Below are positions 6,332 to 60,763 of a stretch of 64,000 nt of DNA, in pieces. The notes under the pieces are model-generated. The model saw only the letters and a list, made by a program, of their open reading frames with translations, had not been told where the DNA came from and did not search any database. The stretch is from contig JASANH010001283.1 of assembly GCA_030248295.1 (NCBI GenBank), positions 1 through 64,000 on the forward strand. Direction: 5' to 3'. The position numbers and the translations under genes are program-made. The stretch comes from Mesodorylaimus sp. YZB2_4 (taxonomy: Eukaryota > Nematoda > Enoplea > Dorylaimida > Dorylaimidae). Position 1 is the stretch's first letter, and every line of letters starts with the position of its first letter.

Positions 6332-7606
6332 CTAATGAATTGAATTAGTATCGCCGATTCGCCTACGTTGTACGCGAAGATAATGACGAATGCAAGCTAT
6401 CAAATGTTCATGCCAATTTCTGTCGAACTGGAGCAATATTTGAGGATCGACATTTCGATCCCAGAATTGAGCAACTGCATGTAGGAATAGAGCCTTTTCA
6501 TTAGTGATCTGATCATGCAAGTGGGCATAAACTGGATTTATCGGTTTAGGATTTTCTCGATTGGCGAAAAGCTTCCAAACGCGTTGCTGAACTCGGTTGT
6601 GCTCTTGCTGCAACGCGTGTAAAAAATTACGTAGTGCCATGTGCATTTCGGGCACCGTATCCTTGTTGAGCAAAGAATTGTATCCTTCTGCGTGATTCGT
6701 CGTTCTGGGACCACCATTGTCGAAGTGATACCACCGTGATATTAGAATCTGGTTTCCGTTGATCCAAGTACTAGAGAAGTGAGCCGAAAAATTTTGCAGG
6801 GCTACGAAATCCTCTGGATCTCGCAGTGTATGGCGTACGTGGTCGCGCAAATCGTTTTGTAAAACGTCCCAAGCTGTTGGAACCAGTTGGACAGGCAACA
6901 AAGATAATGCTTTCACATATCCGAACCAACGTCTCACATCATGTTCTTCTTCGCCCTCCTGAGGTTTGATGAGATACTTCGCTTGTAAACCTTCCGCGTG
7001 CATTTTTCGGATCAAGCATTGAGCAAAATGAAATATGCACCCAACAATTTGGACATTCGGGAAAACGCGATTGATAGCGTTGTGGGCAGCAACTTCGTAA
7101 TCAACAGTGATCTTTTAAACATTGCCAATGCTGCCATTTCGATTAAACAAGGCTTGACGGATCTGCATAAGCAGCGTTTGATACTGTAGTTCCGTTTCAC
7201 TCGACAGTAGTGCACTGACGCATGGCACCGCCTCGTTTTCAAATCGACCATAAGCGTGAATGGTGTATAATTGAAAGAAGTCTGGTTTGGGACACGCTTG
7301 GAAGGTGCCGTTCATAATCCATGTATGGCTTTCGCTCAATGTACGCAGATCCAAATCACTAGAAAAGATCAGAAGTGGAGGAGAATCAACTGGACTACTG
7401 TTACCTTTCGATCCGGGTTGCGGGTCTGAAGATGCGACCAAATATTGCATAGCGTCTACCGTCGAAGACAGCTTTCCCTGGATCACCGTGTTCCAGTCTT
7501 CCAGACTCTGGATCACCCAGACTTCCACTCGACTTAACCAGCGGCGTCTGAATTTGAGGGATCTTCGGCTTGCTCTCTTCATGGCAGGAGACTTTGGACG
7601 ACCCAC
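6332..7606 (-). pseudogene. MULE transposase relic (DDE family)
   Basis: The minus-strand frame from 7606 to 6332 encodes about 424 residues of a Mutator-like (MULE) transposase, with one in-frame TAA at 7115-7117. Family landmarks are visible in order: GTFQACPKPDFFQLYTIHAY, then VDYEVAAHNAIN and GCIFHFAQC just after the stop, then TNHAEGYNSLLN near the end. In the family the motif before GTF is DGTF with the first catalytic Asp; here the codon at 7310-7312 is AAC, giving NGTF. A Cys-containing stretch at about 7660-7740 may be a remnant of the usual N-terminal FLYWCH-type zinc finger, in another frame. The nonsense codon plus the loss of a catalytic residue argue that it is dead. The terminal inverted repeats were not found. 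Confidence 0.85.
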
Positions 7607-29321: not shown

Positions 29322-29418
29322 GGTCGGCGGTAGCTCCTTTGTCGGCGCCAGGGGCACCCACGTGGATGGACATATTGATGACGCTTAGCATTAGATTCTC
29401 CATTTTTTCGTCGGATTA
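29322..29418 (-). pseudogene. Fragment of the vWA-like membrane protein gene
   Basis: About 97 bp, roughly 90 percent identical to 30440-30535 of the downstream gene and in the same orientation. It encodes SDEKMENLMLSVINMS then GAPGADKG of the cytoplasmic tail. Similarity stops abruptly at both ends, so it is a partial duplicate, not a gene. Confidence 0.75.
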
Positions 29419-30304: not shown

Positions 30305-31756
30305 TTATTTCTTTTTTCCAGGGACATCAGCTGAGCCTTCCTTCTTCGAGCCACCAGACTTGATCGAATCGCTCGTTTTCTTCAGGGGCGATCCTTTGGT
30401 CGTCTTTTTCATTTGCTCTTTTTCAGACAGGTCGGCGGCAGTTCCTTTGTCGGCGCCAGGGGCACCCACGTGGATGGACATGTTGATGACGCTTTGCATT
30501 AGTTTCTCCAGTTTTTCGTCGGATTCTTTTTTCTCAGCTTTTCGCTTCTTGATGATCAAGTACACGACTACGCCAGCGATGGCTATGACCAGCAGGACGA
30601 CGAGAATCAGCCCGACGATCAGCCATATCATTGTGTCGATGGTCCCCTGCACTTGTTTCACTTTTTCTACAGCGTCCCGCTCTTCAGGCTTAGGGGATAG
30701 TGGCCGCTCAGTCTGACACGGATCACAAACGAAGGTTTTCAAACAGTTTCCAAGTTCGTGAGCATCTTCTTTGGGCTGAGCACCTTCGCGCTTGACCATG
30801 GTAGACGGCCCGCAAGACTCGTTGCAGTCCGGTTTTGGGTTTGCCCATGGCCATTTCTCATCGCACGTTTGTTCGCAGTCTTCAACAACGCAGCTCCCAG
30901 TCGGCTTAATCTTTTTGCACGTTTCATCTGAAATGTACATGAGCAAATTCTTTTGCCAAACGTCGTAATCGCATTTCGTCCGTTTTTCATCGACAAATCG
31001 GCACATGCTCTTCCATCCGCACAGGTCTTTCACCACAGCTTTGATTAATTGATCGAGGCCCCGGCTGATTTCGATAGTTTCTTTGGACTTGGCGTAAAAG
31101 ATACGGTCTTTTTTACCAGTGTAGGCTAGCGTTTCTTCCATAGCAGCAATGTGCTGAACTTTGGGAGGATTTTCCAATGTTATGCCATAGAAGAAGACGC
31201 CTTTCGAACGCATGGTTTCCGCGATCTTAGCAGCACTCTCCGAATTGTGACTTTGGAAAGTAAGAGTAAAAATGACCACTTTGGCCCGCCCATTCTGGTA
31301 GTCAAAAATCGTGTCATCGATTTTCGTGAAACCAACGTCGAAGTGATAGGTGGCCATCATAGAGAGACGATTTGGGTTATCTGGATCAGTAGCATTGTCG
31401 TAGCTCATAGTCCAAGCATTCAGAGCGGTGGTGAACACACTAGCGTCACCCGTCAAATTCAGTATGACTTTTTCAGGGAGTCCTTTGACGCCCTTCTCCG
31501 CCAAAACTTTTCGATTTTGATCATTAAATACTGGATCCACGATAGCCATGCGCACCTTGTCGTTACCCCAGTCAAATCGGTTTGGTAGAGCTTGCTTGTA
31601 GGCGTCCCTCACAGATTGAAGATTATCATTTACTCCAGGAAGCATCATGACCACAATGTCGATAGCGCCGGCGATTTTTCCGTTGCCGGAAATAGATGTC
31701 GAAGCCAGAACGATCATAAATGGGATAATGAAAAAACGGATGTTACATTCGACCAT
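30305..31756 (-). CDS. Type I membrane protein with vWA-like ectodomain, paralogue 1
   Basis: A single-exon gene of 483 residues. The ATG at 31756 was chosen because MVECNIRF aligns with MVKCNISS of the paralogue at 41931 and starts a signal peptide; the frame is open 51 codons further upstream. Residues 28-245 look like a von Willebrand factor A-like fold (AGAIDIVVMMLPG, NDKVRMAIVDPVF, AKVVIFTLTF, MRSKGVFFYGITLE), but the metal-binding DxSxS motif is absent. Residues 246-347 form a 12-cysteine stalk (GSCVVEDCEQTCDEKWPW, PDCNESCGPSTMVKR, FVCDPC). A TM helix spans about 376-402 (MIWLIVGLILVVLLVIAIAG), followed by a basic tail with a conserved LEKLMQSVINMSIHVGAP patch and a Lys/Ser-rich end. 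A polyadenylation-like AATAAA overlaps the stop at 30304-30309. The function is unknown; it is probably a cell-surface receptor or adhesion protein. Confidence 0.85.
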   Translation of the reverse strand: MVECNIRFFIIPFMIVLASTSISGNGKIAGAIDIVVMMLPGVNDNLQSVRDAYKQALPNRFDWGNDKVRMAIVDPVFNDQNRKVLAEKGVKGLPEKVILNLTGDASVFTTALNAWTMSYDNATDPDNPNRLSMMATYHFDVGFTKIDDTIFDYQNGRAKVVIFTLTFQSHNSESAAKIAETMRSKGVFFYGITLENPPKVQHIAAMEETLAYTGKKDRIFYAKSKETIEISRGLDQLIKAVVKDLCGWKSMCRFVDEKRTKCDYDVWQKNLLMYISDETCKKIKPTGSCVVEDCEQTCDEKWPWANPKPDCNESCGPSTMVKREGAQPKEDAHELGNCLKTFVCDPCQTERPLSPKPEERDAVEKVKQVQGTIDTMIWLIVGLILVVLLVIAIAGVVVYLIIKKRKAEKKESDEKLEKLMQSVINMSIHVGAPGADKGTAADLSEKEQMKKTTKGSPLKKTSDSIKSGGSKKEGSADVPGKKK

Positions 31757-33012
31757 TTCTTTGCTTTGGCGAGTTGATTTCTTGGAACGAATGTTTTCTT
31801 TTCTTTGAACGAATGTTTTCGTTGAGGTCTGCTTTGCGCTTTCACGATAAGCACAGTTGCTACAGGATGATGCAAGAGAAACAATGAGAAGGTTTTCCAT
31901 TGGCGTCACTGACCTGCGGCTACGACTTTACAGTGCTTGTGGACATCGAATAAACTCGTGCACTTTTTGGTGTGGACATATTTTTTCGGTTGTCAATCGC
32001 TCACCTGAGCCGTTAGATGGTGTGATGAATTTCTTAACTCGAATATTCCAAATTAATAAAAAATGTGTTGAATATTGTTCAACGAATACACAGTGTCACC
32101 CTGAATATTTGCTCGCTGTATGCGTACGTATTTACAACAGCAGTAAACCCAAGCGCCCAATCGATGGTGAAGGTGCACGTCGCACACCAAAATGTTCGCT
32201 GTTTGCGAGTTGAACGCTTGGTGATGACTGCGCATGTTTGCTTTGACAGGGAAACACGTAATCCACCAGACCATGAAACTCTCCGAAATCATTTTGTTGC
32301 AGCTCCGAAGTTCTAGAACAGAAGATTTCTCGCACAATTGAAAGCTTCTGGTGACAAAATGGGATCTGACGGTGGGGAGCTTACCTTATCAATGAGCAGC
32401 GGGGGACCTTACCAAGGTTTTTACCAAGCAAAGGAAGTGATCGAATGTTAGTCGCGTCAGGATGAATATGATCCGAGGTAGGTAATCTAAGTCAGTTGAA
32501 CTACAGCAGGTTTTTCTGAGGAAACGTCTTTTGGAACTACTGAAGTACCGCAAGAAATTTGTCAAGCACGCATTGATCAGAATCAGGTTGGTGTTGATGC
32601 AAATGTTGCACGATCATTTAGCAGCAGCTAAATTTGTGAACAGTTTCTAAACAATGCCACGGATTCAATACAAAATTTGTTTGACGTAGGATAAAGATTT
32701 TTGTTCCCTGATCTCACCGAGAAACATACATTACGAGCGGTCACACAGTGAGCCACACAAAAGGCGGGTTGCAGACTGGCTACTATAGTTTAGTTTGCAA
32801 AGTACGCGGTACTCTTGAAAATTTTCATAATAAGCAACTTTATCTCCTGCTCATCTCACTAATCTTGTATCAATGTATTTATTAAATGTACAGTATTAAG
32901 CAAATTCGAACAGAAAAAAATAGCAAACGTTTTTTATCGCGTCTGCTAAAATGATTAATCATAGCTGACAATTTTTAAAATCAGGAAAAATCATTGTAGA
33001 TCGATGGTTTAG
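31757..33012. other. 5' flank of the vWA-like gene; no other gene seen
   Basis: This includes the presumed 5' UTR and promoter of the minus-strand gene. Only short frames occur. Confidence 0.35.
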
Positions 33013-36000
33013 TTATTTCTGGATCTTGTGTTTCATGACTTCATACAAGCCTGCAGCAATTGTGACAATTGTGGTGAATACGACGTGAACAATGTCACTG
33101 TTGGTCGACACACCATTGTTGCACATGTCGGCGTTGCAATAGCAGGCGAAGCAACCGACGTTCAACTCCTCGCATGTACTATCATTCATTTGTGTTGCTG
33201 CACAACCGTATTGTTTCGCTAAATTACGAAGAATATTTCTATTTGCTGACATTTCTCTGATTTGAAAAGTGTGTTTAGAAAATTAATGGAAGGAGTGTGA
33301 TAATTAGATTCACCACTCGCGTAACAGAGGGAAGCAAAAATTTTGGAGCTCAAGCAGCTACGTAACAAAGTCGAAATTCATGATTGCAACGAAGAACCAT
33401 TGACAAATGAAAATTTTGATTTCGATTTCGAGCCAAAGGCCAGAAATTTTTGCAACTTTTCTAAAACGCGGGTGCCAAACCTGCATATTAAAATCTCTTT
33501 TCCTAATATTTCGACATCGATTGCACAAATTAGAGTATCTTAATGCTATCAGGATGGTGATTTCAATCGCTGCCAATGAAAATTTTGTGAAGGTTGAGCG
33601 AAACGTATTTTAGGCAGCCACAAAACAGCGTAATAGCCTCAAAAACTGTCCTAAATAAGATGTCAGATGAAAAAAATTGAAATGGGTACTTGGAGGGCGT
33701 TTTTAAAAGCACACCGTGAAAACTGAAAAAATTCCAGGGCAACCTCTAATGCAATGAGTCTGAGGAGTAAACCCTGGATCGGGGAGGTATGTATTTTGGG
33801 TCGCGTCGGGTCACCTTTCTAAAAGATTGGATCAAACGGGTCAAAAGTACTGCAGTTATGGAGGTGGTAGGCAGTTCCAGACACCTTTTCTTATCTGATC
33901 GGCTCCAGGATTTGCAGAATTTGCTCCCAGCATGCAAGCATCAAGCAAATTCAGCAGAAATAAACATGGGCAAGACAATCAATGCATTAAGCTTTGCATT
34001 TTGACGCTTTAATTCTGCCTGTGTGTCAAAGTCTGCCTAACTATTTTTTGAACCATAATTTCATCATCTCGTCACACTTTTTGAAATGCAGATACTATTA
34101 TGATATGTTCAGTAAATCAGTTGTTGGAATTCAAAAGGAGGAGGAGTTATTCGAGGAGAAGGTGAAATTCGCAGCAAACTTGGGCTTGCCAGCTCTATCA
34201 GGTCCAGAAGGCTCAAGATGCAAATTTTTGTTTAAAGCTATACTAGCAGGGAGGGGGGGGGGTAATCGTAAAGAATATAAGAGTGCTGTGATATGCAGTC
34301 CCTATGTAAAATAAGGTTGGCATTCTTTATTTTTCTCAGATCCATATCAGGATTTTAAAAAATGCGGAAATCGAATCATGGGAGAAACTTAAATTGCACG
34401 CACTTCGCGCGCTTTTGACTGTGATGCGCAGGATGGAGAAAGCTGTGATTTTCAGTGACATTCAGTTAAAAATTCAGTGATAGCGATTTATTCAATAGTT
34501 TCTTCGAGATTTAACAACGTGCTCAATCAATGATTTTTGAAAGAAAGTAGAGCTTTGGCCGAAAATCCAGCCCATAGTGCAATGTAATTCAGATGCAGTG
34601 AAAGTACAGGAGTACACTTGGGGTGCTGCATACCAAGGATACCAGGAGTCACAGTGGATTGCTACCTCCTTCCTAGGGGGACCCATTTGGTAAATTATTA
34701 AACAAAATGGATCATGGGGTAGTTGAAGGCGAAGTACACACTAGACTAGATGTCGGAATAATAAAAATAACACGATAGATTCAGCACCCACATACTATCT
34801 GGTTTCTTTGGGAGTGTACACGCGGCCTATGCGGTAACGTGGAGGGCGTGTATATTCTTAAAGAAAACAGGGTATACATGGGGTACAAAGGGTACAGCCC
34901 CTGTCTATTAGGGGTAGCCAAAAATCTCGACCTCTAGCACCTCTGTGAAAATACGGAAATTCTTGATTGCGAAGGTGGCTATTGGAAAATAAAGGTTTGT
35001 ACTTCTTGCATGATTGAGATGGCGGTAAGTCATTTTGGCAGCCCCCCCCCCCCCCCCCCCCTATAATACAGCATGTGAGGATGCTCAATCCGAGTATTTT
35101 GACATCGATTTTACATAGAATGAATGTCGTCTTTAAGGAATATTTATGAAGCAGTATTACAAAGACCCACCCCACCTGAAAAATGCTATTTCTAGCTCAT
35201 CAGCGAGTCACTCTTATGTAGGCACAAAAGTTTTCCAAACTCATTACTCACTGCAGTTCCACCATGCACAACTTCCGCTGCCCCCTGATGGAGAGCAGGT
35301 GCCGTCATTGTTGCAGCCCACGGCTCCAGCCGAACAGCGGCATTTCAACGCGCTACCTGCAAAACGTGAAAGGAAAAGTATGTTCATCTGTAAGTAGCGG
35401 GTAGCGTGCGAAAATCATGTCCTCTAGGGGGAGCTAGTATGTGCTACACTGTATAGTGATGTGAGGGCGAGAAGGTCACACAAATAGATACGCCAGAGCA
35501 GAATAGGTAAGAAGATCGCGGGCATAGATCACAGGAAATGTTGGGCGTCGGGAATAGTTTTTGTGAAGAGTTGTAGAGTGTGGAAACGCATGTGCGTTGC
35601 AACAACTTATATTTTTGCAGCATAAACATGCGGAACATCCGGGGGGGCGCAAATATTGGCTCCAGGCTTGGATACTTGGTACCTAACCAGATTTCGAAAC
35701 CCTCGCATTCGATGATACCCACGAAGAGTGTACTGAGGGCTGGTGATAAGCCTGATTTCGCACCTCACGAACCCTAACTTCTGCTTTCTAGAAATTTAAG
35801 CAGCGATGTGTATAAATTGGCGCCTTCATCAGCGGTTTTCAGGATTTCATTGCTTGTTTCTTGTAAAAAAAGCTGTCCGATGTCAAAACCCATGAGCGTG
35901 TACAGAGGCCGACATCGCTGTGAGTTATCGTTCGCGCAGTGCAATACCAGTCCTAACGTTACACCAAGCCTTAGCGAACTCGCAATTAGTATACCCGGGA

Positions 36001-36516
36001 TGATACCCGGTTATAGTGGTGTCCTCAAACTTGTGGCTAAGGCTTCCTTGAAATTAGTGCCTAAGCTTAGCCGCGAGTTCGTTTAGCGCGGCTGAAATCA
36101 ATCTCCGTAGAATTTTGTGGATATACAAATTGACAATACTAATTTGTGATTTTATCAATAGGAAACTAGTCAAAAAACATGAGACAATCACATACATCTC
36201 AAATATTCCATCCGCAACTTGAAACAAGCATCCAAAGCTGTGGAAGGAGGACGCTATCCTGGCCAGCCTAACGGCAAAAATTTTGTTAGTGTTTGACCTA
36301 ACTTTTTCTGACGGCCAGCGTAAGAATCGACCTGACGTGATTCCAAGACCCCAGTCACGTCGCGAACCAAGTTCGAGACACTCACGATCAATCAGAGAAA
36401 TGGGTTCCGGATGCTTCTTACTGCACGTTTCCAAGTATATATAGATGATTAAACTCACTTTTCGACAGAAGCGCAGCAAAAATGCAAAGAAAAAGTAGCT
36501 GGGATCGTTGTTTCAT
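33013..36516 (-). CDS. Ly6/three-finger surface protein
   Basis: Three exons on the minus strand: 36459-36516, 35252-35356 and 33013-33254. Both introns are phase 1, the usual arrangement for Ly6-type exons, and the join gives 134 residues. Residues 1-20 are a signal peptide (MKQRSQLLFLCIFAALLSK). The mature part has 12 cysteines in a three-finger pattern: LKCRCSAGAVGCNNDGTC, SCAWWNC, then YGCAATQ, CEELNVGCFACYCNADMCNN, with the family's closing CN. The C-terminus is hydrophobic (VVFTTIVTIAAGLY) followed by a short basic tail, suggesting a membrane or GPI anchor. It is therefore probably a membrane-tethered Ly6/activin-receptor-ectodomain-like protein; the ligand is unknown. The introns are long (about 2.0 and 1.1 kb), and an additional small exon cannot be excluded. 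Confidence 0.65.
33255..35251. other. Ly6 intron 2; no other gene seen
   Basis: It contains short frames and a C-run of about 20 bases at 35042-35061 (as read on the plus strand). No repeat copy was recognised. Confidence 0.4.
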
Positions 36517-36916
36517 CGTATTTTTTCAGGTCACACCTGCAAAGAAATATTTGCATTCATCGACCTATTTAAAGGAATACATCGTGCAGTACTGATTCGT
36601 TCAATACTTTGAGATAAGTTCAGGTTATGAACACGTGCAGATCACTGAACTGTACTGCCGTCGAAGAGCTGGAAACTTGAAAATGTTAGATTTATTTGCC
36701 CGACGCATATAAACCTATAATATACCGAATCGTAGTAAGGAGGCGCTTATAGTCGCTGTTGCCAGCTTGTACCCTGGGCTGGCTTCAACGCCACGATCTA
36801 AAGTTCGAGCAATGGCGGCCACACAGCAATCGATTAGACATAGTCATATTTTACTAACCGCCCTAGCAAATTAGTGCACTCTAGGAGCAGAGACACAGGA
36901 TAAAAAAATACGAAGG
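36517..36916. other. 5' flank of the Ly6 gene
   Basis: Presumed promoter region of the Ly6 gene, lying between it and the 3' end of the LINE relic. No motif was assigned. Confidence 0.3.
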
Positions 36917-38740
36917 TTAAAAATGCATAGCAGAAATGCCATTATAGAAACGTGAAAAACCTCCAAAAACCGTCTCAGTGGGCACAGCATTCCATAAAAG
37001 CGTAGACGAATATATAAAGCTGTGTTTATAAGACTCAGTAAAATGCCTGGGGACAACCAGGTGATGGGTTTCGCAGGTACGAGCACTAGCACGAAAATCA
37101 GATTTGTGAGCAAGCCGGGCATTTCCAAAATCGTGAATACCATGGTAAAATTCATAAAACTGAGTCAATTTCAAATGTTTCCTCCTATCATAAAGCGTAG
37201 ACCAACAAGCTTCACCCAAGGCATCAGAATAAGAACTGGTAAAATCGTTCAATGCTAGCCTAAGCGCGTACCTTTTAGCACGTTCCACTTGATCAATATC
37301 AGTCTTTAAAACAGGATCCCATGCTACGCAACCGTATTCTAAAATTGATCTTATACATGAATCGTAAACTTTCATAAAAACAGGAGGCGGTGCATGTTTC
37401 CCCCACCAATCATAGAATTCCCCCTAAGTTCACCAATCATAGAATTGCATCGACGCACTATGTTACATATATGTTCACTGAATTTTATATCCGACGCGAA
37501 CAAAACACCCAAATATTTTACCTCGTGGTACCAGGTACCAGGTCGACACAATTGCAAATTTGGCAGCAGATCGATTTTCGAATGACCATATCGAAATAAA
37601 ATCACTTGCGATTTGGCACTGTTAAATGTAAGCCCGGCAGATCCAACCCAATCCGAGATAAAGTTAATGGCAGGTTGCACTTGACGCTCAGCTTCCGTAA
37701 TCGACTTCGCTGGCAAGAATAGACCAGTATCATCCGCATATTACGCCTGGAGCAGGAAATTGGGGGAACAGTCCGAAAACTGAGGCAATAACGAGTCCAT
37801 GCACAACACTAAAAGTGTGGGGCCCAGCACACTCCCCTGTGGAACGCCACTCGGAATTGGTGCAATTCGATGAGCAGTAGTGTTAAAAATGACCTCAAGG
37901 TCAAGGTCAGAATTCTGTCAAAACCCCGATTGACCGACCCTTGGTCAAAGTCAGGGTCAAGGTCAGGAAATTTTTTGGGATTTGGTCAAGGTCAGGGTCA
38001 GGTCAGACAGTGAAAAAGCCAGGTCTTTGGAACAATAATGAGCAGTCACCGATAACAACTCGCTGAGACCGTCCCGATAAATATGATTGCAGCCAACAAA
38101 TGATCTTCCCAAGAAGGTGTGACTGACAACGACGTTTCAGAAGATGGGCATGCGGGAACCTCATTAAAGGCCTTCTGAACGTCTAAAAATACTCCTACCA
38201 CAAATTTACTAGCTTTGGAATTCAGTGCGTCGTGAACGAATTGCGATTCATTTATGAGGGCAGAGTTCGTCCCTCTTCTCTTGCAGAATCCATGCTGATT
38301 GCTCGACTGACTCGTAGTTGAGCGAATCAGACGGTCAATATGCTTCTCCAATAACTTTGACAAAATAGAAAGCGAAGATTTTGGCCGATACGACTTGATA
38401 CTATTCTTGTCTGCAGGTTTAGGGTTCGGGATAACTTTAGCTGATTTCCACGAATCAGGAACCTGCCCTTCGGGAATCGATCGATTTAACAAATAGTCAA
38501 TGGCGGCGAGATCGAAGAGGCAATATTTTTGAGAACTCGAGGTGTAAGCTCGTCATCGCCTGGTGCACTGTTAGAGAGTAGATTCTGAATTTCACGTCGA
38601 ACAAAAGTTTCTGTGACGGAATAATCTATGAAGTCGTCGAGATCAGGCGTGGGAGAAGTGAAATTGCCAAAGTCAGTATGGTTAAAATTAGTAGAAAATT
38701 GTCGATTCAATACTTTGGCTTTTTCCGCATTACTAAGCAA
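36917..38740 (-). pseudogene. Non-LTR retrotransposon (LINE) reverse transcriptase relic
   Basis: The minus strand encodes, in several frames, the reverse transcriptase region of a Jockey/CR1-like LINE. In order: LLSNSAPGDDELTPRVLKN at about 38560, IPEGQVPDSWKSAKVIPNPK and SYRPKSSLSILSKLLEKHID at about 38450-38340, GVPQGSVLGP at about 37830, the catalytic YADD at 37729-37740 preceded by an in-frame TAA, and the C-terminal SILEYGCVAWDP region at about 37340-36917. There are frameshifts near 38490 and elsewhere, and the domain is split by an AGGTCA-rich insertion at 37879-38037. The endonuclease part is missing. Dead copy. Confidence 0.85.
37879..38037 (+). mobile_element. AGGTCA-rich mobile element with 9-bp target duplication
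   Basis: A 159-bp insert in the LINE reverse transcriptase, flanked by direct repeats ATGAGCAGT at 37870-37878 and 38038-38046. The interior has at least five copies of GGTCA-type half-sites (CTCAAGGTCAAGGTCAG, GGGTCAAGGTCAGG, TTGGTCAAGGTCAGGGTCAG) and a TTTTTT tract. The ends are only weakly inverted (TGTTAAAAATGACCT against TTGTTCCAAAGACCT). It is non-coding and non-autonomous. Related copies lie at 3067-3165 and 5632-5765; similar motifs occur at 12948. Confidence 0.8.
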
Positions 38741-41638
38741 ATGGTCGATGAAATTCGTCGACTAAAACTGGAATCGATCGATCGTTCGGAGACAAGCCAC
38801 GGATTGCCGACCAAAAAGCATGCGGAGTGTCGCAGTTCGATAAAGTCTCCTCAATAAATTCAGATTCCGCTTTAAACCTGATGGATCGATTTAATCGATT
38901 TAAACCTGATGGAGTACGTGCTCTTCAGCCGAGTATAGTGTTGGATTAAAGAACTGTAAACGGCTCCACCATGCCTGTATCAACCAAAAATTCCATTTTC
39001 ACAGAATTAAAAACATGGAAAAATTTTTTTCGAAAAGGTTTTTGGATTGAACGAAGACTCATGGTGTCATGGTTTTACTTTGTTCACAAGCATTTGCTCT
39101 GAACTTCAACCCAAATCAGTTTCCATAAACGTTTAAATCCACCTCATAAAAGAATGCGGACACGAGTCACATTGTCATCGTACGTGATGCACCAACCAGT
39201 ATCTTGAACAGCACTAAAAGTACCAGTCTTGCCTCAACCAAGAATAAATCATAAAGTTCTGACCGGAAGCTATTAAACGTGCGGCTGTGGTGGTGCAGCG
39301 GCAATGGCGTAGCCAGGATTTTTTTGGGGGCTGCCAGAGGGCAAGAGAAAGTCAATGGCCGTGGTCAGTGAGGGAGCCTATTGCGAGCGCCCGAGAGGGG
39401 GTGAGGTTCGGGGCGGGGGATATACCATTGCCCCGCCGGAGCCGAAAATTTTAAAATGTCTGGCCACAGTAGCTATTTCTGGCATCATTTCAGATCATTT
39501 TCTGGTGTGTTGGAGGTTTTTCAGTTTGGGCTCCGCTGACTCGTACAGTTTATTCAAACCTAAATAAAAAATACAGACCAAAGGACAAACTGCTGTATCA
39601 TTTCAACTTGAGCCTCTGATTATATTTCGCGAAATTTATAATCACGGTATCATCAACAGCGTTGCTCACTTAAAGCAATTTAGAAATCATCAGAAACCAT
39701 CTTTATCCATTTTTTAAGTAAGCGGACGAAGCCTCAGACACATTGTTAGGTGGACCTTTTGCTGGTTTCCTGACATACTTGTCTTCGCATCGGCGGAATT
39801 CATGCAAGAACGATTGATCAGTGATATCGAATTCACCAGTCTCCACATGAACCCAAAACCCCCTCGAGGACAAGACGCGTTGAAATTCAAATCAAAAACA
39901 AACTGAGTGCTGTTAAACAAAACCAGCCAACTGAAAACCACGGGGGACAAATCTGCACAGAAGTGCCAAGGATCGTGATCAACATTTTTACTTCTCCCCC
40001 CGTTTTCCCCTCTGTTGGTCAACAAATAAGAAAGCCAACAGACCAGCCGCGCGACACCGTACAGTACCCGGCTACTGTTCAATCAGGACCCATTGTGCTT
40101 GATGACTATAAGCAGCACTGGGGGACTCTTGAAATTCTTCCAATTCTTTGTTGGAGGTTAGTGCTGAAGAGAGAACCAAAAAGTGCCAAGGTACACGAAC
40201 CTGTAAAATGTGACCTGTACACGAAAATTCTTGCCAGGGGCTGCCTGGCAGCTACAGTTGGTTACGTACAAAATACGCATACGCAAAGTTTGTGTATTAC
40301 GCATTGAAATTTAGATGCGCATACGCCCCTTACAGTGTGGTAGTTTCACATGAAGTAGATGAAAATTTCCTGCGTTGAATTGCAAGGTTTACGCACAATA
40401 CGACGGCTGTCGCTCTGGCCTGCAGTCCAAGCCTGGCGTTGCGACGCATGTCAACCCCGCAGACACACTTGACGCCTGTCTGTCTGGCCCTGGCCAAATA
40501 GGCAATACATTGCTATGACGATCAGCGCCCCTAGCCGATTCACTGCATCACCGACCATGCACACAGGATGCGTTTGTTCCTTATTTGGAACCATTAATCG
40601 ACAAATGATAGCAGAGGAGCATTCATGCTGCTCAAACATCTAGCCACAACATGAGTGGATACAAACCAGGCCTCCTTGAATTTTCACTCGAGCTTCATCA
40701 GGTTATTATTTCACAATCTGAGTCCTATTTGTGCCAGCCGATACCTTTGTGCTCATCGCAGTGCATCAAGTGCGAAAAGTTTTGTTTCAGCAGCATGCCG
40801 CTGTGAGAAATTGTTTCACTCCATTTTTTCCTAGTTTCTGACTTGAATCCGTCATTTTTCTATATAATTAACCTTTTTCAAATTGTTAACGTGTTATTGT
40901 ACAAGCGTTCTCGCGCACGCTTTAAGTTTGAAATGAGGGACTTACTGTGTATGCAGCCAGCCGGCGATTTTGAGTGCCATTTTAGTCTTTTAGACTACTA
41001 AAACTGGGGAATCTTCGGATTAGATATCACCCAATTCCATTGAATTTCCCCAGGCCCCATAAAAGGACACCAATTCACCTCGGTTGTTTGTCCGCTACTC
41101 ACAGATGTCTGACTGCGTGCCATGGGCTCGGTTCACGTAGGAGACCTGGGCGCACTACTTGCGCAGATTCAGTTGCATTCTTACGTCATAACCACCATGA
41201 TTCGCACACAAAATTCGAAAATTTCTTTTTCAGATAACGGGGCGCAACATCGAAAATGCTTTATTACAAAAGGACATCGTAAAAATGGGCTGGGTTGAGT
41301 TGAGGAAATCACGATTCGTTTTCACCCCATCTCTGGTTGTTCCAGATGTTTGGTAGATTTATTTGTCGCATTACCACGAGATTTCCCCGTCCTAACGCGT
41401 TTTCTCGATATTAGGCCCCTAACTTTAAAAAATCCTCGCAATTAAACACCGTAGAGTCTTTAAGGAGTGTTAAGTTTACATTCATTCAGTGATTTTCGGG
41501 TCATTTCAGTCTCCCGCTAATTAAAACAATACACACTTTCTTTTAAAATCTTTGAATTTTCTCGCTAAGATTCTCAGGTTCCTTATTGTGGCAGAGTTAC
41601 CTGGCCGAAAGAGCGGACATCCGCATAGCTCTATGCCA
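38741..41638. other. No confident gene
   Basis: A GTGGTGGTGCAGCGGC motif at 39286-39301 matches the SINE head at 4719 but no body follows. The next part (39302-39460) is GC-rich and repeat-like. Overlapping frames of 122 (minus, 39714-40082) and 114 codons (plus, 39963-40307) have no recognisable domain. The rest is unassigned. Confidence 0.35.
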
Positions 41639-41746
41639 TAAGACGCAATTATAGTCGACAAAATTCCGACTCCTACCCTAGCGCACGCTGGAGGATATGG
41701 CCATTACTCCTACCCTAGAAATTTTGTCGACTATAAATGCGCCTTA
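41639..41746. mobile_element. 108-bp MITE-like inverted repeat
   Basis: The left arm TAAGACGCAATTATAGTCGA and the right arm TCGACTATAAATGCGCCTTA are inverted copies over about 28 bp with a few mismatches. CTCCTACCCTAG is repeated twice in the middle. It lies 185 bp upstream of the start codon of the next gene and could affect its promoter. Confidence 0.65.
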
Positions 41747-41930
41747 AAGCGCCAGTGTAGCATGAAGATAATGTAAAGTCGATCCGCACCAGTTCAGCGA
41801 GACTGCAATCACTCCGAATCTTGTCTTTTACGCATGCGGCTGTGCCGAAATTTTTCTCGTTCACCGTGTGTTCAAAGTGTAAAGTTCGACGACATTCTCG
41901 CTCAGAAACAATTCAATCTTCGAATCAAAA

Positions 41931-43415
41931 ATGAAAATGGTTAAATGCAACATCTCCTCGATGATCGCTACCCTGCTGATCGCTGTGGTTGGAAAATCAA
42001 TTGTCGAATGCCAAAACAAAATTAAAGCCAAGGCTCACATCATCAGTATTCTCTCTCCGCTATACGATAATTTGAATAACCCAAAGGAAGGTTCTGGAGA
42101 AGCCTTGGCTGAAGTGCTGCCATCAAGCTTCGAAATTAGCGACAGCTGGGTACGCTTGGGTTTGGTGGACCCATCTCTCAGCAAGGAAGAGTATGCAGAC
42201 GTGTATCAGCTGGATAAGCATCCTGACAAGCCTAAAGTGCTCGTGAATAAGACTGGAGATCCCGCTATATTCATTCAAGCGATCCAGGACTACACTGTTT
42301 CTGGTTCTTTCGTCACCTACGCGGAAGGCGGCGGTCGATTTTTCTTGTTCGTCGACACGAACTACGGCGTGCAGTTGTCCAACCAGACATTTAACTATAC
42401 GGACAAGACACACGCGAAAGTGCTGATTGTATTTCATGCAAATGCAATCGGCGATGTCGACTTGGCGACCTCCCTGCTCCGTGAAATTCGTGCCAAAGGT
42501 GTTCTGGTCTATGTGGTGACTTGGAAAAATACCGCCCAGATAAGCGACAAGCAAGCCGCCGCCCTGTCAGAAGCGACTAAAATAGTGGGTGATCGCAAAG
42601 ACAGGTTATTCTTTTTCGAAACGTACAAAAAAGCTGGCGTGGTCCCAACGCTCAAGCAAGTGAAAGACGCCATCGTGCGAGATCTGGCAGGATGGAAGAC
42701 CGTCTGCCTCTACGGAGACGAAAGTCGCGCAAAATGCGAGTTCTATGCCTGGAATAACAAATTTATAAACCTGTACCTCGACAAGGAGTTGAACAACGTG
42801 GAAGAGCCGAAGGGCAGCTGCACTGTGGAAGACTGCGAACAAGAATGCGACGACAAATGGCCGTGGGAAGGACCGAAACCCGATTGCAGCAAAGTTTGCG
42901 GCCCAGTCTCAATGGTGAAACGCCGAGGCGCTGAACCAAGGGAAAATGCTGAGCTATTGGCCAACTGCCCGAGCTTCTTCATGTGCGATCCGTGTCCAAC
43001 TGTGGCGCCCGGCACCGAAGGACAGGGTGGAGGGGAAGAAGTCAAGAACGTGAAGGGCACGGTCAACACGATGATCTGGCTCATCGTCGGCCTGATCATC
43101 GTCATCGTGATCGTCGTCGTCTGCTCCGCTGTCGTTGTGCACATGATCGTGAAGAAACGCAGGGCCGAAGCCAAGGCTGCCAATGACAAAATGGAGAAGC
43201 TGATGGAAAGCGTCATCTCCATGTCCATGTACATGGGAGCCCCCGCTGCCCACAAAGGAACTTCGGCCGATCTGTCGGAGAAAGAGTCCACCAAGGAGCC
43301 GCCGCGAAAGAAAGCCAACAAGGCGGCCGGTAAGCCCGCCAGCCCAACGGGCGCTTCGATCAAATCGGGGGGCTCCAAGAAGGAAACCCCGACTGCCACT
43401 CCAAAGAAGAAGTGA
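41931..43415 (+). CDS. Type I membrane protein with vWA-like ectodomain, paralogue 2
   Basis: A single-exon gene of 494 residues with good start context (CAAAAATG). Residues 1-27 form a signal peptide. Residues 33-252 are the vWA-like region (AKAHIISILSPL, SWVRLGLVDPSL, AKVLIVFHA, IRAKGVLVYVVTWKN), again lacking DxSxS. The stalk (253-355) has ten cysteines (GSCTVEDCEQECDDKWPW, PDCSKVCGPVSMVKRRGAEP, FMCDPC). The TM helix is at about 381-407 (MIWLIVGLIIVIVIVVVCSA), and the basic tail has MEKLMESVISMSMYMGAPAA and a Lys/Ser-rich end. It shares the order of all parts with the gene at 30305-31756, which faces it on the other strand 10 kb away. The codon use is GC-richer than in paralogue 1. A 285-codon frame on the opposite strand is a shadow. 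Confidence 0.85.
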   Translation: MKMVKCNISSMIATLLIAVVGKSIVECQNKIKAKAHIISILSPLYDNLNNPKEGSGEALAEVLPSSFEISDSWVRLGLVDPSLSKEEYADVYQLDKHPDKPKVLVNKTGDPAIFIQAIQDYTVSGSFVTYAEGGGRFFLFVDTNYGVQLSNQTFNYTDKTHAKVLIVFHANAIGDVDLATSLLREIRAKGVLVYVVTWKNTAQISDKQAAALSEATKIVGDRKDRLFFFETYKKAGVVPTLKQVKDAIVRDLAGWKTVCLYGDESRAKCEFYAWNNKFINLYLDKELNNVEEPKGSCTVEDCEQECDDKWPWEGPKPDCSKVCGPVSMVKRRGAEPRENAELLANCPSFFMCDPCPTVAPGTEGQGGGEEVKNVKGTVNTMIWLIVGLIIVIVIVVVCSAVVVHMIVKKRRAEAKAANDKMEKLMESVISMSMYMGAPAAHKGTSADLSEKESTKEPPRKKANKAAGKPASPTGASIKSGGSKKETPTATPKKK

Positions 43416-48868: not shown

Positions 48869-51800
48869 TCATATCAAAAAATCGTCCTCTATTTTCTTAC
48901 TCATCATCATCCGTTCTATTCCATATCGTCGCAAATTCACTTCTACATAGGCACCATCATAAAACTTTTCCATTGCCGCACGACCAGCGCCGATAGCCAG
49001 CTGCAGTCCATTGCCTCCGAAACCGCACAAGTTGTAGAATCGTCTATTGGCAACATGAGTACCAATTATGGGTGCATCGTCGTACCAGTTCTGATCATAA
49101 TATCCAGCCCAAGCGTTCTTTACCTAAAAAGTTCTTCACCTAACCAACCTACCCAGTCTTGAAATATATAGATAAATTCCTAATTCAATCTGATCCAGCT
49201 GCGAGATCAGGCAGATAAAGACTTACAAATATAAATCCCCCTATGCCGCAGAAGCACTGATATTCTCCTTGGGCCAACTACATGATCACTGCCAGCATCC
49301 TAAACACTCAGCTGGAAAAAAGGAGTTCTATCACGGGACCGACTTCCAGTGCTAAACTGCCAGACTAACTTCTGCCCCTGCTATAACCCCTGTGAGGCCT
49401 CCTTTGGACGATGTCCATAATATTGCTGCCACCTAGCCGTGTGCACAACCGATTGCATGTGTACGATCGCAAGGCTAAGGCTAAAAACAGCTGATTCGAG
49501 TTCGAAAAAGTTGAAAAGCGAGAAAATCCGAGAAATATCAATCGATACAAAAACTTGCTTTTTTGCTTCCTCGACCCATCCCCTTTAAACGCCCAAAAAA
49601 TTTTGGATTTCCATGGCGAGGAGCTAGGTTACTGATGCTGACTGCACAGTACCATTACGACACATATGTACGTGCTGCAGAGCATCAGCTCTCAGACAGA
49701 ATCGAGCCCACCACTTTCGTATGAACCTGATTGCCCCAAATTATTTGGTGTGATGCATAAAATGTGTTAATCACCAGTAACACAGACCGCCGCCCCCGCA
49801 AATCGTGTATTCTCCATCGAGTGTTCATACCAACTCTGACCATGAAGGATGTGATAAAACCCAGCATCAAGATCTGTGGTTAATAGTAGAAGTTACAAAA
49901 TGTAAAAGAATCAGAGCTGAGTTTTTTTGCTCAATGAATAAAGAACATAGATTGTGCAGGATTCTGTACACAGTTTCTGGTTTGAATTTGATCGGATAGG
50001 GATCCAGGCTAAGGGTCGGATGGGTCGATGCTGGGATAACATCTGAACTATTTATTGAAAAAATGCATAAAGGCTCTTGTCTGATCGACCCTGGACAAAG
50101 CTGGAATAGCAGAACAGGGCATCACCCGTTAAGATGATTTTTCATCCATAAACCTGGTCCCGCACTGAATCATAATCCCCTTGTTAACAACAGTATCACC
50201 GCATCGGGCACCAGTCAATCAGTCAGGCAGTCATCACTTACCTTCATACATTCGAAAGCTGGTATCCGTTTCGCTAAAACGGGCCATATACGTTCATCGA
50301 AGAAGTTATAATCCACATCCAAATTTGAATGATCAATAACATGTTCATCTTCTTCTTCCGTTGGTCTTTTTCCACATAAATATAAACTGCCATTTACAGT
50401 ATCACGTCGACACCAGACACCCGACGGATCGATCATGAATGGCATATCGAGACCAGGGCCATCAGGACAATGCACAACGAACACAAACCGTTTACGTCTT
50501 TCCACTGGGACTGGGATGGACATAAAGCTTCGTTTATGACCCAATCCAAGGCCAGCAGATCTGGCAATATCACTGGCCCATGGACCAGCGCAATTAAACA
50601 CGACAGTGGATCGAACTGGACGAGGAGCCGCGTCGCACATTTCTGGCACGACCTGCAACGAAAAGTAACACAAATCCATTGATTAAAACAGGATTTCTGT
50701 TAGGATAGGGTCGACCTAGGAATGGTCAAGTTTCACTTTGTAACACTCTTTTTTGTGTGTGAATTTGATGCACCGATAAGTGGTGGTGATGACGCTACAG
50801 TGCTATTCTGTACTCGATTTTTATAGGATTATCCAAAAAAACCTTTTGCTGGAAGTGCTTGGGCGATATCAGCCATAACTCACCCATCTTTCCTTCTTTC
50901 TCGATTAACGACACATCAGCAAGTTCGCAAATAGACGGGGAATAAAAAGCTTTACACAAAAAGGTATTATCTTCTACCTATCTCGAGATATCAGGCGCCA
51001 CAGTTGAAGGTGCTCTTTAAGTTGACGACTTTCAAACCTTCTGCTCCTTTATGCTAACTGGAAGACGGGGTTTGACCAGGCAAAAATCGCCCAATCCATC
51101 TGGCCTTCAGCATGACCCCCATCGTCTATACTATAGCGTTACATTTGATATCTATATATGCAAAAAGTGCACCCAACTTCAAGGAATTTTTCAGAAAAAT
51201 CCATCATTGAAAATCTTGCAAGACATATCATAGAACCAGACATTTATTATCGGATGGCGCTTAAAAAATGGCATTGATTGGTTTTTCCTAATTTGAATTC
51301 GACTTTTAATTGTGAAAATAGATAGGAGGAAAGTAGAGGTCACCAAGTGCCAAAAGTACGCATCATTTGAATTTCCCGCCTGCTCGCCACTTATGACATG
51401 AGAGCGGTTTGGGCTGCTCACTCTGGGAGTCGTGGGTAAATTTAAAACTTTTTTTTTCACGAAAGACTGATATTCTCGTTTAAAGTTAGATAGGTTCGTA
51501 AGGAGAAAGCGAAAAATTATGTATTTCCAAGTGATTCCCGGAGTAAACAGCCGAAACCGCTCTCATGTCATAAGCTGCACGCAGGCGGGAAATTCAAAAG
51601 GTGCGTTCTTCAGGCACTTGGTAGGCCCTGCTTTCTCTCCTTCTATTTTCACAATTAAAAGTCGAATTGCAACCTGGAAACAACCTATGCATGCATTTTT
51701 TAAAGCTCTATCCGAAAATAACTATTTGGTCACATGATGTGTCTTGCAAGTTTTTCAAAAATACATTTTTTTTGAAAACTCCCTGTAGTTGGCATATTTT

Positions 51801-53876
51801 TAGCGTATTTGGGCATCAAATTTAAAGCTAAAGTATAGACGACGGGAGTCATATTGAAAACTGGACTGGGCATAATTTAGGCTGGTCAAACCCCGTCTCC
51901 TAGTTAGCATAGAGGAACAGGATGTCTGAAAGTCGTCAACTCAAAGTGCACTTTCGTCGACTATTATCTCGAGATAGGTGAAGGATAGACGCTTTTAGCG
52001 GCAAGCATCCGATTTCTCATTCATTTTCGAGCGCAGCTGATGTGTCGTTGTTAAGAAAAAACTGAACGAAAGGCGACTTACGACCGGATGCCCCAAACAT
52101 ATTTTTAAAAAATGTTTTTTGGGGATAATATCATGAAAATCGAGCCTGCACAAAAAGAGCTGTTGCGTCACTACCATCTCTCATGGGTGCATCGAATTCA
52201 CACATAAAAAGGGGTTCAAAATTTGAAACTAGGTTTTCCATGGGCCAAACTTTATAGAAAGCCTGTCTTAGAACCAAGTATGGACAAGGTCGGCTACGTA
52301 AGCGGGATGGAGGGTTTGGGGGGAGGGGAAGGGGAGGGGGTAGAGATCAGATCAGATCGCCTAAGCCTGATCTGATTGCGTGTGAGACAGGTCAGGTTCG
52401 GGTTGAGTCGAGCGATTGAGTTGTATGACTATTTTCATACTGTACTGTTCAATTGGCCTGTATTTGGAGGCCAGGGCTGGATGTCCTGGCCGGGCCAACA
52501 CTCCACCCCGCCTTGCCCATACTTGCTTAGAACCCCAATTTCGAGAAAAAACAATCAAGATTTGGTAAAACATGGCCGATAATAGCTGCCTCAGAACCGT
52601 TTTTTTGGGGATCTGCAACTTTTGCCCACCGAGACCTATTTTTAAAAGCAGATCAGAAATCCATGACGCCTCATAGAAGACTTCAAAATCTTTTTAGGTT
52701 TTTTGCTCTTTTAGTCCCACGAACTTTCTGGATCATGCAAGACCCTCCCCCAAATTGCCAACCTCTGCCCTAGGATTTGTTGCTTACAACAGCATTTGAC
52801 AGCTTGCAGAATTTCCATTGATCCTCGTCTTTAAAAATAGTCTTGGCTTCTAGATCGCCGATTTGCTCATATTCGAAATTGACCACTTTGCCTTTAACGT
52901 ATTGAACGCCCAAGGTTAAATTCTTTTCACGAAAAGCTGATAGGATTTGCCACGGATCGACGATGCCTTCGTTTTCTAAACCCATAGTTCCAAGTAGAAT
53001 ATTATCGAAATTCATAAATGGAAATCGTTGCTTTAATTCATCATGATTCAAAACGGTGACTTTTGCTCCGCATTCACTACAAAATTGGAATAGGAAAAAA
53101 TTGTTAGACAGTTTATTTTTTTTAAACTCACATTTGCATTTTTACAGCTGCTTCCATTCGTTTTGCTTTTTCTTCGTTATCAGTTAAAAATAAATGACCC
53201 ATCGGTGTAAAATCGATTTTTGGCGGTTCGCTATCAAGAATTCGTAAATGTTCGCCAGCATTTCGAAGAAATTCTGTCCCGAATAAGGCTAATTCGACTA
53301 ATTCCGGTTGACTAAATTGTACTTTCACTGCACCTTGACAAAGCGAAGTGGCATTTTTACCGAACTAAACAAATATAAAAGGCTCGAAATGAAAACAAAC
53401 GGCTGAAACACAAATTTTCTTACCGTTTCATCCGATTCTACAACCACGACTCGGCAATCTTCGTCTCTGGATCTTTGTTTTAGCCACCATGCCGCCACAC
53501 TTCCCATCATTCCGCCTCCAACAATAAAAAAATCGGCTTCTACAGGAAATAATTCGTATTGCATAACAGCTCGGATCGGATATTTCATATCTTTTCGATC
53601 ATAATAATCATATTTTCTTTCGTAATGTCGTCTTTTTATTCGTCTCCAGTCGTGTTCTAAAATGTCCCAAAGTCGTGCCGTTTGTCCTTTTACCGAAAAC
53701 CGTGGATTATTATATTCTTCGTACAATATTATGGGCGAAGTATGAATTGATGCACCATTTTGAAAATTTCTGATTCTGCAATATGATGATCGTAAAATCG
53801 ATAAATTTTTTGAACATATTCGGGATCGAAGATGGAAAATGCCAAAGAAAAATGATGTCGATGGCGATAGAAGCAT
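48869..53876 (-). CDS. FOXRED1: FOXRED1-like mitochondrial FAD-dependent oxidoreductase
   Basis: Five exons on the minus strand: 53424-53876, 53132-53364, 52788-53076, 50242-50652 and 48869-49123. All joins keep phase and give 546 residues. FOXRED1 is a FAD protein needed for assembly of respiratory complex I in the mitochondrial matrix. The first 45 residues are Arg/Ser-rich and fit a mitochondrial presequence. The dinucleotide fold follows at about residue 115 (FFIVGGGMMGSVAAWWLKQR). Later family blocks are KNATSLCQGAVKVQFSQP, GLENEGIVDPWQI, VVFNCAGPWASDIARSAGLG, PVERRKRFVFVVHCPDGPG, KRPTEEEDEH and WAGYYDQNWYDDAPIIGTH, then FGGNGLQLAIGAGRA near the end. The length is a little above the human protein (486). 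Intron 3 holds a giant inverted repeat. It shares a start region with PIN1. Confidence 0.9.
49124..50241. other. FOXRED1 intron 4
   Basis: A 1.1-kb intron with a GTAAGT donor and a TTTTTAG acceptor. No repeat or nested gene was recognised. Confidence 0.6.
50729..52232. mobile_element. Giant fold-back inverted repeat in FOXRED1 intron 3
   Basis: The arm at about 50729-51430 and the arm at about 51545-52232 are inverted copies over some 700 bp, with a loop of about 115 bp. Matching blocks include TGTGTGAATTTGATGCACC against GGTGCATCGAATTCACACA, CTATCTCGAGATA in both, GACGGGGTTTGACCAG against CTGGTCAAACCCCGTC, and ATGACATGAGAGCGGTTT against AAACCGCTCTCATGTCAT. No transposase was found. It resembles a fold-back transposon or a long-TIR non-autonomous element, inserted in intron 3. 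Confidence 0.8.
52233..52787. other. Rest of FOXRED1 intron 3
   Basis: It holds a G-rich block (52310-52345) and repeated GATCAGATCAGATCGCC words near 52350. Nothing coding. Confidence 0.4.
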
Positions 53877-58366: not shown

Positions 58367-60763
58367 CTAGAGCATACTCGTTTGACTATAAGACGACCCG
58401 TCCTCTTTGAACCGTCGTCCTCCATTCTTCTCCCATTCGCAGGCCATTCTGACCAATAATCTTCTCTGCATCAAAGGCGACGCGCTGACGATCATTTGTT
58501 GTCCAGTCTTGCACACTGACAATCCGCCAGTGGCTGGTCGTCTAATCAATGCCATTGAGACCAAGTCATTTGTGTCTTGATTACTGTTATTTTCCTGCAC
58601 TGTCCTTTTCCTATTTATAAATCGATCTCTTAAACGAATTCTACTTCTCCACCAAGAAAAATAAAAAAAAGCGTTGGTTGCTCCGTCGACAACAATTAAT
58701 AAATTGCTTAAATCGACCAGTACAGCCAGCGTTTTTGCCCAAGCGCTTTGTTCAGATTCATATTTTCGATGATCGCTTGTCAATTCCAAGATATTGATTG
58801 CAACTGGTAGGCTATAGCAGAGAAGGAATTTGGCTGCTATCAGTGTCAGGATGACGTGAGCATGACGCCACGATGAGGCGGACGTCGTCGACGTAACGCT
58901 CGGAGAGCCTGATCGCGTAGTCGCGATCGATGGACTAATCGATGCACGATCAAAAGTAGCTGATCGATCGAATTGTGGTCGAGTGGCTGTCGGTCTGTCC
59001 ACATTACCAATTCGATCAATGGTTGCTGATCGATTCAAATTAGGTCGATCAGCGTTATTTGATCTGTCTCCATTACGTCGATCACCTGGTCGATCAGTCA
59101 CTGTCCTATCGATCGATAATCGATCAGAATTATGACTTTTCACAGATAATAATCGAAAATTTTGACGTCTTCGATCTGATTCACGCACCAGACAAACGAT
59201 TTTAAAAGTCAGCAGAAGGACGACCAGGAATGGTAGTGTAGACACGAACAGCATGTTGGCTAGGACGCGATAGACGAACTGATAATAGACGTTGTCTCGC
59301 ATGCTGGACATGCGCACTTCATAGACTGGCTCGGTGGAATCCATGTGAGAGTATGAAGATTTTGTTTCCGAGTCGATATCAGTATCATTCGGCCTAATCA
59401 CTGTCGATGAAAACGACTGATCCAACCAAACCTCGTTCTCTAATGCATTGATAGCCCTTATCAGCGGCTTATCATCGGGGTCGCTGGGGTCGAGTGTGGA
59501 TAAAGTTCTTATCAATCGTATCAGTTCAAATTTGCTATAATTTCTTGCACTGATATTAGTAGGCGTCTTATCATTATTCGAATTAACGTTCGGTTGATCG
59601 GCACTTTTCGTTTCAATGCTTTCCCTCAACTTCCTTACCAAGTTCTTATCACCAAGCTCCTTATCGAGTATTGATAGGATGGTGGTCTCATTCAACGCCC
59701 CTCTCGTCCCCTGCTGTGCTCCAAGCTGATGCTTAGACGCGAATAGATAATTAGTGCTATTTCCGTCCATGTCGCGATAATGATAATCATTCGGGTCTGG
59801 AATCATGTCGGTCCGTTGATTCAGGCTGAGCTCGAATAATAATGGTAAATTATATAAAATGGCTCCCAGACTGAGAATAATGGAAACTGTCTTGGCTCGT
59901 CGTCTTGGTGATGTTAGTCGAGTGCTGTGGAATGGCAAGCTAACGGCCAAGTACCTGAAACCGAACTCGTGAATTAGGTATTCACCAAACAAGGACTTGT
60001 GCACTGAGTATCTAAATGGCCACCATGTCACATGAATGCTTGCCATTAGCTGAGAGTGCAGCATAAAATGTCCGCTTTCACTTTTTACGAACTCTTTGAA
60101 AGACACTTTTGATTGACAGATTAACTAGTGAGCTCAGAAAACAATTGAGGCGTTTAAAATCTTTAATATGCCTACATTAAAAACGTTTGGCCCGACACGG
60201 GATCGAACCGTGGACCTTAGCGTTATTAGCACCACGCTCTAACCAACTGAGCTACCGGGCCCGCTTGCAAGACGATTTCCGCAAAATGGCTCGCGCAGTC
60301 CGTTTTCGCGCAAAATGAAGGTTGAAACACAAAATGCTGCTCACCTTTCGATAGTCACAACCACAACCAACCAGACGTTGGCAGTTAAACAACAATTTCC
60401 AAGCGGATATCCAACCAAAAATGAAATATCAGCAACAGCCCTAAAGTTCGGATGCCACCTGGTCAAGACAGGTACGCAGTTAAATAAAACAGTAGCAATT
60501 AGTAAGCCCGTATTCCAAAAAGCGAACGTCATAAGATAAAAATAAAAAGCTTGTCTTCGTCTTTTAGGTTGAGTTTTCACATTTCTACAACAATGTAATG
60601 AAGAAACCACAGCACCATTGCCCAATGTGCCGATCACAACCAATATCAAACTGAGCACCCCGTTGATCCAAAATGATAAATGGTCATAAAATGGGGGATG
60701 CTCAATATCAGCATGATAATCCATAAAATCGTATTCTTCGATTGGTGTAAAATTTGAATCCAT
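58367..60763 (-). CDS. Peptide GPCR, FMRFamide-receptor-like
   Basis: Two exons on the minus strand, 60345-60763 and 58367-59954, joined in phase 2 to give 668 residues. Class A receptor features: TM1 with GNGAVVSSL (about 32-57), TM2 (about 72-95), TM3 ending in the DRY-equivalent TIERYLAV at 138-144, exactly at the splice junction, TM4 with ILYNLPLLFEL, TM5 (about 367-395), TM6 with KFLLCYSLPVAINILEL, and TM7 with DGATNAFFYF in place of NPxxY. The ILYNLPLLFEL block and the TM3/TM4 layout resemble invertebrate FMRFamide-type receptors; the ligand is inferred only. Unusual are a second extracellular loop of about 180 residues and a third intracellular loop of about 105 residues made largely of Asp-Arg repeats. 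The single intron (59955-60344) hosts a tRNA-Ile on the same strand. Confidence 0.85.
60188..60261 (-). tRNA. tRNA-Ile (anticodon AAT)
   Basis: The minus-strand sequence starts GGCCCGGTAGCTCAGTTGGT and ends TTCGATCCCGTGTCGGGCCA, with a 7-bp acceptor stem (one G-U pair), A box TAGCTCAGTTGG, B box GGTTCGATCCC and the anticodon loop CTAATAA. There is no intron and no encoded CCA, as usual for nuclear tRNA genes. It lies inside the intron of the receptor gene, in the same orientation. Confidence 0.97.

Follow-up and report, generated by a model that had tools for sequence, protein, structure and literature searches.

The 64,000-nucleotide stretch of Mesodorylaimus sp. YZB2_4 analysed here (the window; positions 1 to 64,000 of the forward strand of contig JASANH010001283.1, assembly GCA_030248295.1) contains two genes, A and B, that belong to a very large, intron-free and apparently undescribed family of nematode membrane proteins. 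Their heads are assigned by profile comparison to the von Willebrand factor A (vWA) type and lack the usual metal site, and in these metal-less heads variation is greatest in the loops that align with the former site. With middling confidence, we regard the single-exon proteins of this very large family as cell-surface molecules whose likeliest role is that of receptors for adhesion or recognition.

Gene A (30305..31756, minus strand) is an intact open reading frame (ORF) with a signal-like start and a stop, encoding a single-exon type I membrane protein of 483 residues that matches gene B over its full length; its ATG is at 31756, with the open frame extending upstream as far as a GTG at position 31909. 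Gene B (41931..43415, plus strand), also an intact ORF, encodes a single-exon type I membrane protein of 494 residues. In gene A, a predicted signal peptide (residues 1-24, 31685..31756), its extent estimated from the hydrophobic N-terminus, precedes a head without DxSxS that the family profile relates to vWA structures (residues 27-245, 31022..31678). There follow the 12-cysteine WPW module as delimited in alignment A2 (residues 246-347, 30716..31021), a transmembrane helix predicted from hydropathy (30551..30631) and a tail patch with an ADLS core (30422..30508), identified from the alignment of the two genes and the count of tail motifs. Gene B has the same parts on the same grounds: signal peptide (residues 1-28, 41931..42014), head, again without DxSxS (residues 30-252, 42018..42686), WPW module (residues 253-355, 42687..42995), in which two of the 12 usual cysteines (positions 253 and 288) are missing, transmembrane helix (43071..43151) and tail patch with ADLS core (43194..43280). 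The proteins align almost end to end, with 38% identity over 500 aligned positions (E 2e-105), and identities number 9/24 in the signal region, 50/214 in the head, 56/107 in the module, 4/11 in the spacer, 25/44 in the transmembrane helix with its flanks and 40/71 in the tail, which is basic in both. The earlier note on this DNA, a reading of the sequence alone, had described two intact genes with the order signal peptide, head, stalk, transmembrane helix and tail, and ORFs, alignment and hydropathy bear this out. There is also a stray 96-bp copy of gene A's tail patch, 94% identical (29322..29417, minus strand), which lies 1.1 kb away, beyond the 3' end of gene A, in surroundings without any other family match.

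The two genes have many relatives in the 145-Mb assembly of 1067 contigs that contains the window, which was the genome searched. Gene B as query gave 90 matches, and two other metal-less members, L058 and L056, gave 121 and 122; merged, these queries define 152 loci on 67 contigs, of which 84 are open over at least 350 residues without a stop in the match and 47 have an in-frame stop. Many are clustered, 59 of 85 neighbouring pairs lying less than 50 kb apart. A metal-bearing query, L068, gave 78 matches, of which 36 entered the total (those dropped were judged already counted, plain vWA or short), and with all four queries the count rises to about 179 loci, distributed over 80 contigs; of these, 107 are open over at least 350 residues and 51 have an in-frame stop. 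These totals are approximate: matches within 700 bp are merged and broken copies may split in two, weak matches (E up to 1 for gene B, 0.01 for L058 and L056) may include other vWA genes, and since the search scores the best candidates only, the true number may also be higher. The search for further copies that the earlier note had suggested leaves its two paralogues standing as real genes but shows their number to be a large undercount, given 90 matches with gene B alone; the two-gene view had missed both the size of the family and the metal-bearing sister branch described below.

The 44 members read are the ORFs of at least 380 residues among the loci of the gene B search, minus a second ORF in L047, so distant members are under-sampled. 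Alignment A1 has 43 rows, with the window copy used for L001 and with L044 omitted for its two tandem ectodomains; alignments A2 and A3 also leave out L011, L018, L024 and L026, whose modules are damaged or duplicate, and hold 39 of the 44. The trees omit L044, which is a single ORF (G000 C242) with two head-plus-module units in tandem. L023 and L024, about 10 kb apart (G000 C55), are nearly identical in DNA and represent either a very recent duplication or an assembly duplicate.

Compared with PDB, the head profile from alignment A3 matched collagen VI alpha-3 at 2.5e-41, a whole-chain value that sums several vWA copies, the best single copy among those listed reaching 4.3e-7. Further matches were to proximal thread matrix protein 1 (2.2e-10) and to the I domains of integrin alpha-1 (1.1e-7) and integrin alpha-2 (about 1e-7), with weak ones to anthrax toxin receptors and von Willebrand factor (E 0.005 to 0.009). 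Single members tell the same story less strongly: of the 43 metal-less members compared, 13 match Pfam VWA (PF00092) at E values no higher than 0.1, the best being 1.2e-7, and the gene A and gene B proteins have no VWA match and nothing above the family cut-off in Pfam at E up to 1. These profile comparisons support a true vWA head in the family, as the earlier note had suspected, with the fold following from homology. The DxSxS motif of the metal ion-dependent adhesion site (MIDAS) is common, though not universal, in vWA domains; it is absent from all 44 long ORFs read in the window's branch, in line with the absence already described for the pair.

A VWA search of the genome returned 108 matches, including ORFs of about 500 residues with strong VWA domains. 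Four of these that were read, L067-L070, all contain DxSxS and TDG, match Pfam VWA at E 8.6e-19 to 7.3e-29, and carry the same kind of module, with the core WPW in two and WEW and WRW in the others. Each has a hydrophobic, transmembrane-like stretch, and L068 and L069 extend beyond the stretch of sequence read. In a tree whose root was set by hand on the metal-bearing side, L067-L070 are separate from all 43 metal-less members with support 100/99. Because this sister branch is separate and the metal site is taken as ancestral in vWA domains, the probable history is a single loss of the site at the root of the branch to which genes A and B belong. The presence of both branches in one genome offers a built-in comparison for asking whether a metal-free vWA domain can become a variable recognition module.

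Variation in the metal-less heads is concentrated where that site used to be. Among 12 metal-less pairs, 172 of 346 positions (50%) differ in the loops that correspond by alignment to the three integrin I-domain metal loops, as against 58 of 321 (18%) in those of the opposite face (p 1.2e-8 in a one-sided rank test); all loops assigned to the metal face together differ at 306 of 673 positions and the core at 287 of 1253. When the assignment was shifted circularly as a control, 2 of the 192 positions, counting the unshifted one, gave a value as high as that observed. The bias is also present in 37 overlapping metal-less pairs at identity 0.45-0.65 (821/1080 versus 245/969). In three metal-bearing heads of similar divergence (identity 0.52-0.56), which served as a further control, there is no such bias (34/72 versus 40/84), and adding a fourth metal-bearing member gives 80/144 versus 99/168. 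The ratio of nonsynonymous to synonymous substitution rates (dN/dS), pooled across pairs, peaks at 0.93 in the second metal-aligned loop.

How conservation is distributed among the parts modifies the view formed from two genes. Mean pairwise identity among the 44 members is 0.222 in the head, 0.374 in the module and 0.223 in the tail; across the members read, the conserved part is the module and not the tail. The earlier note had held that tail patch and stalk are better conserved than the head, which is correct for the window pair and, for the module, family-wide, whereas among the 44 members the tail has no advantage over the head in conservation. Its suggestion to compare dN/dS by part led to a similar outcome. 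Pooled over the 12 pairs, whose paths on the trees were judged by eye to share no branch (L044/L049 being absent from the trees), dN/dS is 0.71 in the signal region, 0.50 in the head, 0.32 in the module, 0.53 in spacer plus transmembrane helix and 0.47 in the tail. The contrast of head and module agrees with a constrained stalk and a diverging head; stronger constraint on the tail than on the head does not hold as stated, the two values being close. Pooled values are below 1 in all parts, as genes in use should show. Single values, listed for the 40 least diverged pairs, exceed 1 on few sites in places, as in the head of L046/L058 (1.40) and in several regions of signal and stalk.

Gene conversion as a general source of the conservation in the C-terminal half was considered and rejected: a mosaic survives correction in 1 of 54 pairs, and the head is the more diverged part in 33 of 54. 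That pair, L049/L050, is a mosaic at synonymous sites (19/43 versus 4/50, p 7e-5), with weaker hints in other pairs. Because its synonymous sites, too, are less diverged in the C-terminal half, the apparent conservation there looks like recent gene conversion. Thus, gene conversion explains single pairs and not the overall pattern.

The module behind the head spans about 105 residues with 12 cysteines, a WPW core and one arginine. In a 44-row alignment, eight cysteines, the first tryptophan and the arginine are present in every member, and the remaining four cysteines in 41 to 43. The module profile has no match in PDB (best E 1.3), and we know of no named domain that resembles it; the WPW module is thus a candidate new cysteine-rich domain. 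Several matches obtained with other queries were set aside. Gene B alone matched a membrane cofactor protein chain in PDB at E 8.5e-5 over residues 305-419 (gene A, 0.16), and in the region of spacer, transmembrane helix and tail the full-length profile matched sodium channels at 3.2e-4 and beta-dystroglycan at 0.0044. Since the module profile alone matches none of these, we take them, without proof, to reflect the composition of spacer and transmembrane segment. In Pfam, among the 25 of 80 families listed for 43 members, TMEM154 was found in 17 members (best 1.2e-5) and a plant cysteine-rich domain in 3 (best 0.0015).

Two kinds of C-terminus are present. In 32 of the 44 members the tail has at least 40 residues; in the remaining 12, no more than 9 residues follow the most hydrophobic stretch of the C-terminus, and judging by sequence these look like carriers of a glycosylphosphatidylinositol (GPI)-like signal, although the stretch is weak in L043. 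Some members have Thr/Ser-rich stretches ahead of the membrane. The full tail patch that the earlier note described is a trait of the window's relatives. Its core, [ASMV][ADV]DL[ST], is present in 12 of the 32 tails; shuffling predicts 0.01, a figure that is no probability since the 12 tails are related by descent.

These observations can be joined into one proposal. The proteins would lie at the cell surface, with the vWA head presenting a ligand-binding face that gave up its metal and diversified afterwards. On this former metal face, ligands would be bound without metal and would differ between members. The 12-cysteine WPW module would act as a disulfide-locked stalk that keeps the head off the membrane, extended in some members by the Thr/Ser-rich, mucin-like stretch. 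Anchoring would be through the transmembrane helix and a basic, Ser/Lys-rich tail, whose motif may bind a shared partner, and in a minority through the short GPI-like end. Taken further, a nematode lineage might have assembled about a hundred recognition receptors on one scaffold as a germline repertoire, in which a vWA domain that lost its metal site a single time and later diversified its former ligand face stands on a fixed disulfide stalk and senses microbes, hosts, mates or kin; we put this forward tentatively. Large and diversifying families of surface receptors are how many organisms distinguish partners or pathogens.

Several points weigh against such a role in recognition. With pooled dN/dS below 1 everywhere, diversifying selection is not proven, and no part and no window of the head reaches 1, the highest window being the loop at 0.93. 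The borders of the loops were drawn with the variability profile already in view, guided by the alignment to integrin and by general vWA topology, and the metal-bearing control consists of three sequences that are gapped in some of the compared columns. Many copies are decaying, as the in-frame stops in 51 of 179 loci indicate, and the 12 motif-bearing tails are of common descent. Finally, simple relaxation of constraint would give much the same numbers.

Relaxed constraint is the main rival, and we consider it a real though doubtful possibility. The loops would have drifted and bound nothing since the metal was lost, and the head would be a structural spacer, for example in the attachment of epidermis or cuticle. 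A near-neutral pooled value in the most variable loop, with no pooled window at 1, is what such drift should leave, and stops in 47 of the 152 metal-less-query loci fit it as well. Yet 84 of these loci are still open over at least 350 residues and the rest of the head is under selection, with pooled windows down to 0.20; furthermore, a role as spacer does not account for the large number of differing heads.

Alternatively, the heads may vary through exposure to a host immune system and not through differing ligands. As variable surface antigens, the proteins would resemble antigen families elsewhere in their number, presumably exposed head, local clusters, pseudogenes and mosaic pair. We find this improbable: nothing in the present data marks the species as a parasite, the loci are scattered over 80 contigs, and pooled dN/dS stays below 1. 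Recognition between gametes or mates (sperm and egg, or male and female), expanded through sexual conflict, would in general fit fast-evolving heads on a fixed stalk, but it too has little to recommend it, as the family exceeds in size the gamete-recognition families known to us. Antigenic variation and gamete recognition are both less likely than a family of adhesion or recognition receptors.

The window, with a GC content of 44%, holds several other genes and ORFs. A FAD-dependent oxidoreductase gene on the minus strand (50215-53876), with DAO and NAD-binding Pfam matches and presumably FOXRED1-like, is apparently split; its oxidoreductase-like pieces are in separate ORFs (50215-50679 and 53325-53876), and genes with introns thus exist in the window. 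Also on the minus strand are two ORFs at 6332-7606, of which one weakly matches a MULE transposase (E 0.036), an ORF without a Pfam match at 36917-37375, which we take to resemble the C-terminal part of a LINE-type element, and an ORF for a rhodopsin-type G-protein-coupled receptor at 58367-60106 (7tm_1, E 2.7e-7). A genome-wide search for the N-domain of nematode cuticle collagens (Col_cuticle_N) gave 133 matches, which mark the genome as that of a nematode, whereas a Chitin_bind_4 search had no match anywhere and so carries no weight. No SL1 spliced leader was found within one mismatch, which presumably points outside the nematode groups that use canonical SL1. A lipocalin search of the genome gave 8 matches, of which three were read. 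By eye, two are ApoD-like and one FABP-like, and their assignment as tardigrade SAHS proteins was rejected on that ground; the ApoD-like ORFs, L061 and L063, are without introns. The window's own contig has two more lipocalin matches (G000 C63:301978 and C63:313556).

No named family was found that covers these proteins over their full length, as the earlier note had supposed: Pfam matches of the gene A and gene B proteins stay below cut-off, the module is without a match in PDB, and the matches listed in the open-licence literature include no paper on such a family, which does not imply absence from print. Gene B, the one query used on contigs of viruses and prokaryotes, found no relatives there. 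The nearest known systems share the head or the general layout. Integrin alpha-1 and alpha-2 I domains, matched by the head profile over most of the domain at E about 1e-7, are likewise vWA ligand domains on type I surface proteins. Unlike integrins, the window's branch is without a metal site, has the WPW module instead, and is represented in the window by proteins of 483 and 494 residues; integrin beta-propeller and leg domains have no Pfam match in the gene A and gene B proteins at E up to 1. In layout, the family comes close to ANTXR1/2, which are small type I membrane proteins with a vWA domain, a short membrane-near domain, a transmembrane helix and a tail, and which the head profile matches weakly, as given above. 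The membrane-near part differs, being here the 12-cysteine module, and Anth_Ig has no Pfam match in the gene A and gene B proteins (E up to 1) or in the four sister ORFs (E up to 0.01).

Among nematodes, vWA domains occur in extracellular proteins such as C-type lectins, according to the part of one study that treats them (PMC9085898). The family described here is distinct from these lectins in being single exon and in having the WPW module, and no C-type lectin domain was matched by Pfam in the gene A and gene B proteins or in the four metal-bearing ORFs. Two further systems are secreted proteins. Collagen VI alpha-3, the best match of the head profile in PDB, is a secreted collagen chain without a transmembrane helix, and some of its vWA domains also lack the full metal site. 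Von Willebrand factor, whose chain the profile matches weakly (E 0.007), is a secreted multimeric protein, and its A1 domain binds protein without a metal site.

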